Shown here: piece by piece, positions 13,891-16,575 of the stretch | Layout of the letters: the number at the start of each line of letters is the position of its first letter | Numbering within the stretch: the first letter of the stretch is position 1 | Virus record (IMG/VR): IMGVR_UViG_3300034789_000011 | Location: 1-29,662 of that record | DNA length: 29,662 bases | Reading direction: 5' to 3' (one strand) | DNA from: a virus | Notes under the pieces: generated by a model | Told to the model about the DNA's origin: nothing | What the model saw: the letters and a program-made list of their open reading frames with translations, nothing else | Databases searched by the model: none | Program-made: the position numbers and the translations under genes

Positions 13891-16575
13891 ATGGCAACAA
13901 CTTTCGTAGACTACACAGGAGACGGAAACGCTACGAAGTCGTTTTCCTTTCCTTCCATCAAAGAAGCAGATATTAAAGTAGAGGTTGATGAGGTTCTTAA
14001 AACATTAGGCAATCACTATAATATAACTAGCTATACTACAACGGGCGGCGGTAATGTTGTTTTTACATCAGGCAACATACCAGCCAGTCCAGCTGCAATC
14101 CGTATCTTTCGTGATACAGATGTAGACAGTGCAAAAGCCACCTACACAGCAGGGTCGTCAGTTAAAGCTAATGATCTTAACAACAACCAAACTCAGGTGT
14201 TGTATGCTGCACAAGAAGAACAAAATCAAACAATACAAACACATAAAATAAAAGACTCAGCAGTAACAACTGCTAAGATTAAAGCTGATAATATTACAAG
14301 TGCACTTATAGCAGATGACCAGATAAACTCTGAACACTATGTAGATGGTAGTATTGACACAGCACACATTGCTGATGCTAATATTACTACTGCAAAGTTA
14401 GCAGATAATGCAGTTACAACTGCTAAGATTACAGATGCACAGATTACAACAGCGAAGCTTGCAGCTGATGCAGTCACAACTGCTAAAATTACAGATAACA
14501 GTGTTACAACTAATAAAATAGCAGCTGACGCAATCACTGCTGCTAAAATAGGTGATGACGTAATTAACTCTGAACATTATGCAGCAGGGTCTATTGATAC
14601 TGAGCATATAGCAGATCTAAATGTTACTACAGGTAAGATCGCAGCAGATGCAATTACAAATGCAAAAATTGCTGATGACAGTATAGACTCGGAGCATTAT
14701 GCAGACGGATCTATAGACACAGCTCATATAGCAGATGCACAGATTACAACAGCAAAGCTTGCAGATGATGCTGTAACAGATGCTAAGATAGCAGACGGTA
14801 CATTAGATAATAGATATTACACAGAAACTGAACTAGACGCTGGTCAGTTAGATAACAGATACTTTACAGAAACAGAATCAGACGCAAGATACTTTAGACA
14901 GGATTCTACTGAAACTATATCTAGTGGAAATACATGGTCTAGCAGTGATAGTTTTATAGCTACTACAGGTGCTATTAACGCTCGTATTGTTGACCTTATA
15001 GATGATGTTGGTGGTTTTACAGCTATAACAAGTGAGCAGCATTTTCCTAATACAAACCCACAAGGTTCTACAGGACAGGCAGCTATACTTAGTATACAGG
15101 CTGCATCTACTACACTAACACCTAGTGGTACAACAGTTACAATAAGTAATGGTAACTTAGCTGATAATGCTAATATTACAATAACTGGTGTGTCAGCTGC
15201 CATACCTTCGGGCTTCGGATTCTTGGTAGAATCTACATCTACTTTACATACATATACTTTTCACAGATTAGTTCCTAAAGCAACAGAAGTAACAACAGTT
15301 GCAACTAATGCTACTGCAATAGCTACAGCAGCTACAAACGTAGCAGATATAAATAACTTTGCAGATTTATACATTATATCTAGCAGCGAACCTACACAAA
15401 GAGCTGACGGTACATCTTTACAAGAAGGTGACTTATGGTATGACAGTTCTAATGACAACTTACAAGTTTATACTGGTAGTGCGTTTTCTATTATTACACC
15501 ATCTCAGTCAGTTCTTGATGACGTAGCTATTGTATCAGGTGCTATAACATACAGTGAAGATTTAGGTCTTATAACTGATGCTGCATCAACAGGTAGTTCT
15601 AATGGTTCACTTGACATAGTAGCAGATGCACTAGAAGACGAAGTAACATTTACTGTTACAGCTGCTACTGGTAAATTTATTATTGATGGTGAAGATAAGC
15701 CTGCACTAACATTATACAAAGGCTGGACATATACATTTGATTTAAGTGACGCATCAAACGCATCGCACCCACTACGCTTCTCAAGCGGTGGTAGTGCTTA
15801 TAGTACTGGTGTTACTGTTACTGGCACTCAAGGACAGGCTGGTGCAAAAATCCAACTTGTAGTACCTGAGTCACAGCCAACAAGTTTTATATACTACTGC
15901 ACAAACCACAGTGGTATGGGTAACAGTATAACTGTAAAGGATGACCCAATCAAGACAGTATCTGACAATATAACTAATATTAATACAGTTGCTTCTGATT
16001 TAACTGAAGACACATCTGAAATAGATACAGTTGCAACTAACATTACTAATGTAAATAATGTTGGAAACAATATATCTAATGTCAACAGTGTACATAATAA
16101 CGCAACCAACATTAACAGTGCAGTATCTAACGCAACAAATATAAACACTGTTGCTGGGTCTATATCTAACGTAAATACAGTTGCATCTAATGTTAGTGGA
16201 ATCAATGATTTTGCTGATAGATACCGTGTGGCAAGTAGTGCCCCATCCAGTAATAATGATGCAGGTGATCTTTACTTTGATACAACATCTAACGAACTCA
16301 GAGTTTATAATGGTTCATCTTGGCAAGGTGGTGTAACAGCTACTGGAAACTTAGCTGGTCTAGGTGCTAACACATTTACTGGCAACCAAACGATAAACGC
16401 AAACATTATTGTATCAGGTACAGTTGATGGAAAAGATGTATCTACTTTAATAGCAAATGTTGTTGAAGATACTTCTCCCCAACTAGGCGGAGCGTTGGAT
16501 GGTCAAAACAACAACATGTCAAACATTGGTACTATAGATGGTACTAACTTACAACTCGACTTCGGAACTTTATAA
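13891..16575 (+). CDS. Tail fibre (T7 gp17 N-domain) with embedded cupredoxin-like domain
   Basis: An 894-residue fibre. Residues 1-110 (TTFVDYTGDGNATKSFSFPS...YTAGSSVKANDLNNNQTQVL) are the T7 gp17-type N-terminal domain that attaches to the gp11/gp12 tail. Residues about 117-305 are TTAKIADDAVT-type repeats. Two similar modules, each ending DLWYDSSN or DLYFDTTS with an L-x-V-Y-x-G-S strand, lie near 500-535 and 775-810. Residues about 585-690 resemble a cupredoxin: LYKGWTYTFDLSDAS, H626, and C670-x-x-H673-x-x-M676. Residues about 690-775 are seven-residue NI-x-NVN repeats that would form a trimeric shaft. The C-terminus (EDTSPQLGGALDGQ) is a common phage-fibre ending. It has no C-terminal chaperone; the next gene does. 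Confidence 0.9.
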   Translation: MATTFVDYTGDGNATKSFSFPSIKEADIKVEVDEVLKTLGNHYNITSYTTTGGGNVVFTSGNIPASPAAIRIFRDTDVDSAKATYTAGSSVKANDLNNNQTQVLYAAQEEQNQTIQTHKIKDSAVTTAKIKADNITSALIADDQINSEHYVDGSIDTAHIADANITTAKLADNAVTTAKITDAQITTAKLAADAVTTAKITDNSVTTNKIAADAITAAKIGDDVINSEHYAAGSIDTEHIADLNVTTGKIAADAITNAKIADDSIDSEHYADGSIDTAHIADAQITTAKLADDAVTDAKIADGTLDNRYYTETELDAGQLDNRYFTETESDARYFRQDSTETISSGNTWSSSDSFIATTGAINARIVDLIDDVGGFTAITSEQHFPNTNPQGSTGQAAILSIQAASTTLTPSGTTVTISNGNLADNANITITGVSAAIPSGFGFLVESTSTLHTYTFHRLVPKATEVTTVATNATAIATAATNVADINNFADLYIISSSEPTQRADGTSLQEGDLWYDSSNDNLQVYTGSAFSIITPSQSVLDDVAIVSGAITYSEDLGLITDAASTGSSNGSLDIVADALEDEVTFTVTAATGKFIIDGEDKPALTLYKGWTYTFDLSDASNASHPLRFSSGGSAYSTGVTVTGTQGQAGAKIQLVVPESQPTSFIYYCTNHSGMGNSITVKDDPIKTVSDNITNINTVASDLTEDTSEIDTVATNITNVNNVGNNISNVNSVHNNATNINSAVSNATNINTVAGSISNVNTVASNVSGINDFADRYRVASSAPSSNNDAGDLYFDTTSNELRVYNGSSWQGGVTATGNLAGLGANTFTGNQTINANIIVSGTVDGKDVSTLIANVVEDTSPQLGGALDGQNNNMSNIGTIDGTNLQLDFGTL
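14241..14803 (+). repeat. In-gene repeats coding TTAKIAD / SEHYxxGSIDTxHI units
   Basis: DNA coding ACAACTGCTAAGATTACAGA-like units is repeated many times with third-base drift. Three copies of a longer unit coding SEHY-x-x-GSIDT-x-HIAD start near 14328, 14568 and 14688. A fourth copy of the same unit is in the next fibre gene near 16986. The copies are similar in DNA as well as protein, so recombination between the two fibre genes is plausible. Confidence 0.85.

Follow-up and report, generated by a model that had tools for sequence, protein, structure and literature searches.

Does a phage tail fibre that displays the four copper ligands of a type-1 cupredoxin in the right order contain a genuine cupredoxin domain, and what might such a domain do on a virion? 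The question arises from a 29,662-base virus record (the window, by which we mean the whole stretch of DNA analysed) whose source was assigned to a T7-like cyanopodovirus. The window encodes psbA (photosystem II D1), a T7-like major capsid protein, tail proteins, and internal virion proteins, together with a fibre operon and terminase. Its capsid protein is 76-79% identical to those of cyanopodoviruses such as S-SBP1, S-RIP2, and P-GSP1, an identity that points to marine Synechococcus or Prochlorococcus as the most likely host. psbA lies side by side with a gene for a 168-aa protein (positions 17-1099 and 1117-1623 of the window), upstream of the capsid gene, and this second gene gives ambiguous PHROG matches (ferrochelatase, 2OG-Fe(II) oxygenase, and endonuclease).

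Results

The tail fibre gene (positions 13891-16575, plus strand) is an open reading frame for a protein of 894 aa that falls in PHROG tail fibre families. Fibre residues 3-145 match PF03906 (Phage_T7_tail) with 41.6 bits against a cut-off of 25.2, and the N-terminal domain thus places the protein among the T7-like tail fibres. The original prediction put a cupredoxin-like domain at residues 585-690 or so, naming the stretch LYKGWTYTFDLSDAS, H626 in an SHPLRF strand, and the loop C670-T-N-H673-S-G-M676. All of these residues are present in the reading frame. The location of the domain also held, while its limits are better set at about residues 583-685 (positions 15637-15945, plus strand). An AF2 model, PDB matches, and a profile match to cellular cupredoxins support the domain.

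Four residues on the plus strand are candidate ligands, each supported by conservation. The first His, H626 (15766-15768), aligns with a plastocyanin His ligand. The Cys candidate is C670 (15898-15900), and the second His, in the C-x2-H motif, is H673 (15907-15909). The candidate axial Met, M676 (15916-15918), completes a C-x2-H-x2-M loop with the same spacing as that of amicyanin (CTPHPFM). C670, in the CTNHSGMG loop, is the sole Cys among 894 residues, and apart from the initiator the fibre has just two Met, one of them M676, so the motif was not picked from among many Cys, His, and Met residues.

A helical, coiled-coil-like shaft with NINTVASN-type repeats follows directly after the domain (15946-16224, plus strand). 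In an AF2 model of fibre residues 535-790 it is predicted as a single helix at model residues 152-244 (about 93 residues), mostly with a pLDDT of 66-76, and this placement is fitting for a coiled-coil shaft. The segment made up of cupredoxin and shaft is flanked on either side, at residues ~510-535 and ~790-815, by a GDLWYD/GDLYFD...VY(T/N)GS element, an arrangement suggestive of insertion or duplication of the unit.

We modelled the domain with AF2 using 25 relatives. The model is a compact beta-sandwich of nine strands with a mean pLDDT of 88, rising to 93-98 (mostly 95-98) over most of the core, and the model of residues 535-790 gave the same domain again. When the PDB was searched with Foldseek, the top 12 matches were all copper proteins, namely three-domain nitrite reductase and rusticyanin. 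VIA-align returned matches with Z scores of 8-9 over 90-99 residues, in a list that also includes auracyanin and Synechococcus plastocyanin. Three-domain nitrite reductase (2dv6, 6tfo) gave the best match, through its N-terminal cupredoxin domain (Z 9.0 over 99 residues, rmsd 3.0); that domain belongs to an enzyme and is about 20% identical to the phage domain. A Z score of 7-9 could by itself reflect merely a common arrangement, but the matches agree on one superfamily and on the ligand positions, and the likeness therefore goes further than that. Query-normalised TM-scores were moderate (0.4-0.5), probably owing to the low-confidence N-terminal tail of the model and to differing loops.

Three hallmarks of the type-1 copper subgroup of the cupredoxin superfamily can be read from the predicted fold and the sequences: a Greek-key beta-sandwich, a His before a mid strand with a Cys-His-Met set around the last loop, and conservation of the ligands across the family. 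In the model, H626 sits just before a strand, C670 ends the penultimate strand, and H673 and M676 lie in the loop that leads into the last strand, a placement that sequence and DSSP assignments agree is that of cupredoxins. Had the predicted fold placed the four residues at a distance from one another, the original prediction would have been refuted. Their positions are instead cupredoxin-like and in register with the plastocyanin ligands, although inter-atomic distances were not computed, and the best solved matches to the predicted sandwich are type-1 copper domains. An immunoglobulin V-domain was also considered, since a single-sequence PDB search gave only weak antibody light-chain matches, through an IYYC motif. 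It was rejected because the protein has one Cys only and because the fold and the His and Met columns indicate a cupredoxin.

We compared the domain with cellular cupredoxins at the level of sequence. All four residues are in register with the plastocyanin ligands in sequence and profile alignments. A profile of phage domains aligned to seven cellular cupredoxins with an E value of 1.6e-4 and with all four ligand residues lined up, and a more diverse phage profile aligned to cellular cupredoxins with an E value of 5.1e-4. The hhalign probabilities were modest for both of these short alignments (50% and 31%), and the profile alignment on its own would not settle homology. Among 25 relatives, 10 are weakly matched by PF00127 (best E 0.0022) and five by the TIGR02656 plastocyanin model (best E 0.0038). 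The window domain has no match above any Pfam or NCBIfam cut-off, and a PF00127 search of the window's own record returned no match. It does not reach the PF00127 (Copper-bind) gathering cut-off of 21.2 bits and is therefore not filed under that family.

Two cellular proteins that do exceed the PF00127 cut-off link the phage domain to these families. One (L198) is a secreted-looking 148-aa reading frame from a Prochlorococcus single-cell genome, and the other (L199) is from Bacteroidetes. An HMM of domains from viral contigs matches them with E values of 3.6e-10 and 8.1e-8, obtained in a search of a small set, with the H/C/H/M residues aligned. In a tree of 55 rows, both fall between the phage clade (SH-aLRT 99) and plastocyanin/amicyanin. 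The tree is only a guide because the domain is short, and its rows were pre-filtered for C..H..M, which makes it uninformative on loss of the site. These comparisons support homology of the phage domain to real cupredoxins, with the two proteins as its closest bridge and a possible source family.

We assembled 202 related domains, each of at least 78 aa and not filtered for the ligands, and 195 of them keep all four residues. Retention in the aligned domains is 97.5% for H626, 98.5% for C670, and 99% for both H673 and M676. These are the most conserved columns, equalled only by the core residues F616 and Y614. Our first viral scan was biased, because its search patterns included the loop itself (CTNHSGMG). 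A second scan used peptide patterns from elsewhere in the domain that covered none of the four ligand residues, and of the domains from loci newly found with them, none of 70 has lost C, H, or M and none of the 68 that reach the first His has lost that residue. The ligands stay in place while the length of the loop varies (CxxHxxM, CxxHxxxM, and CxxxHxxM), and the Cys and His codons differ synonymously (TGC/TGT and CAC/CAT) while the residues are unchanged. As read from these alignments, the conservation is far beyond chance. Loss of the Cys or His in most homologues would have counted against the original prediction, and the opposite was found.

The seven exceptions are degenerate or truncated copies. 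In two, the first copies in Flavobacteriaceae proteins, the four sites hold Y, D, Y/F, and R/G while the remaining fold is kept, and the second copy is intact in both proteins. A third, in P-HM2, holds K, D, H, and a gap beside an intact adjacent copy. The matches to the remaining four stop before the loop. Taken over the whole set, the pattern is the trace that a putative metal site leaves. It also appears that the fold can serve without metal, because a few site-less copies persist.

Individual loci offer further observations. The two Flavobacteriaceae proteins (L183 and L184; 1491 and 1493 aa), with a ligand-less first copy and an intact second, form a natural contrast that bears on the role of the metal. 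Tandem copies are also found at five other loci (L134, L101, L114, L109, and L133), with the ligand residues intact wherever copies are complete. In one fibre frame (L042, start base 471), an in-frame gap of about 20 residues at residues ~697-700 removes the first His and the next strand, and it is either a true deletion or an artefact of assembly.

The domain recurs in several kinds of virion protein, including tail fibres, gp9 fibre connectors, and baseplate wedge and other baseplate proteins, from cyanophages, pelagiphages, and Methylophilales phages. Named carriers include the tail fibres of pelagiphages Baldr and Mosig, of Methylophilales phages, and of P-SSM2, a virion protein of S-TIM5, and genes within the fibre region of P-SCSP2 and P-GSP1. 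In T4, gp9 connects the long fibre with the baseplate, and many cyanomyoviruses carry the domain at the gp9 C-terminus. The Kyanoviridae gp9 wedge-fibre connector (PHROG 677) resembles the window fibre in this related C-terminal domain with its four residues intact; it differs in being a T4-like baseplate protein with a PF07880 N-terminus and an annotation that does not mention a copper domain. When a gp9 copy was used as a query, 349 of 50,697 phage records matched, and the named groups among them were all marine: Synechococcus, Prochlorococcus, and other cyanophages, Pelagibacter and Methylophilales phages, and uncultured marine viruses.

The domain also turns up in some large bacterial proteins whose repeats resemble those of adhesins. 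Matches on genome contigs are mostly on short marine MAG or SAG contigs that may be viral, and few are on long contigs. Very large proteins with an intact site are encoded on a 1.06 Mb Bacteroidetes contig (L170) and a 189 kb Prochlorococcus contig (L186); they also carry DUF285, FG-GAP, or laminin-G-like domains and may be cellular surface proteins.

Discussion

The original prediction is confirmed as to the residues and supported as to the cupredoxin domain, with copper binding inferred; its suggestions on fibre stability and host contact were only a list of possible roles. The domain fold and its site are known, and what is new is their setting in phage tails. We found no description in the literature of cupredoxin, plastocyanin, or copper in connection with phage tails, although our coverage was incomplete and absence is not proof. 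The phage domain shares with plastocyanin, amicyanin, pseudoazurin, and rusticyanin (PF00127) the fold, the His/Cys/His/Met order, and the topology, as well as the amicyanin loop spacing and a profile match with the ligands in register. Those proteins are secreted electron carriers, whereas the phage domain sits within a virion structural protein, scores below the curated cut-offs, and has its own conserved TYxFD strand and GTxGxxGA stretch. A fibre-held metal has a precedent in the HxH octahedral iron sites of T4 gp37 and Alteromonas phage R22Y, the 'Ferrojan/Trojan Horse' fibres (PMC11705849). The window fibre does not belong to this class: a comparison of all its His positions found no HxH motif, that is, no two His two residues apart. 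T4 Hoc and similar Ig-like phage domains are likewise recurring beta-sandwich accessories on virions, sometimes in tandem, but they belong to another sandwich family, and the phage cupredoxin has a conserved set of metal ligands.

We propose, with a probability of roughly 0.6, that the phage-borne cupredoxin is a copper-dependent accessory adhesion and rigidity module of the attachment apparatus. The site is most likely a functional mononuclear copper site in a host-facing module ahead of a long coiled coil, with copper loading and role both inferred. In our proposed mechanism, a cupredoxin domain, probably cellular in origin, would have been adopted by marine phages as a reusable module carried on the virion. 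One copper ion would be held by His626, Cys670, His673, and Met676. Apo-cupredoxins fold without metal, and loading would most likely follow folding, from host or lysate copper. The metal would tie together one end of the sandwich and leave the exposed His673 face free for contact with the host surface, so that the module could add both adhesion and rigidity. A trimeric fibre with the domain ahead of its helical shaft would carry three copies. T7-like virions have six trimeric fibres (P-SCSP1u), which therefore gives an inferred 18 copies per virion. Cryo-EM of P-SCSP1u did not resolve the distal fibres and hence provides no structure for this part.

Copper might instead be bound for redox chemistry or metal delivery, through electron transfer with a partner on the host surface, oxidation at the cell envelope, or a copper 'Trojan horse' in which the domain engages a copper-uptake protein of the host. 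Type-1-like sets of ligands are characteristic of electron carriers, and a receptor-mimic role has been proposed for iron in phage tail fibres (PMC11705849). We nevertheless consider such a role unlikely: no redox partner or copper receptor has been identified, and the module occurs in different virion proteins of phages of both photosynthetic and non-photosynthetic hosts, a distribution that a general structural or adhesive role fits better. Redox chemistry or mimicry of a copper receptor cannot be excluded.

Free copper is very scarce in the cytoplasm, which is where phage proteins assemble, and another metal or an empty site is therefore possible. Cys/His sites also take zinc, and a protein folding in the cytoplasm could use such a metal as a purely structural cross-link. 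We regard this as quite improbable, since His, Cys, His, and Met together in a cupredoxin fold are the mark of copper, zinc is poorly bound by Met, and the Met is kept as strictly as the Cys and His across the 202 domains. Least credible is a metal-free Ig-like adhesion sandwich that keeps the four residues for packing alone, for although such sandwiches are common phage accessory modules, a few degenerate copies exist, and the single-sequence PDB search gave weak antibody light-chain matches through a YYC motif, the four residues rank among the most conserved columns, survive changes of loop length, and tend to vanish together, a single Cys allows no intrachain Ig disulphide, and copper domains rank first in the fold search.

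We therefore return to the copper-dependent adhesion and rigidity module. Conservation among its relatives shows that the site matters, not that its purpose is adhesion. The kept ligand residues suggest that the viruses carrying the domain use copper on host-facing parts, with copper binding itself an inference. The broader picture remains tentative, and we hold it with less than even confidence: that many phages of the ocean, numerous cyanomyoviruses among them, bear loaded type-1-like copper sites on the host-facing part of the virion, that infection depends on copper, and that such a metalloprotein attachment apparatus ties adsorption to trace copper in seawater. If the site does hold copper, viruses of an abundant ocean group would have a metal cofactor where they make contact with the host. 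A domain whose current annotation is limited to tail fibre, baseplate connector, or hypothetical protein would gain a function, the iron 'Trojan Horse' idea would have a copper counterpart, and trace copper would be linked, in a way not yet explored, to adsorption and virion stability.
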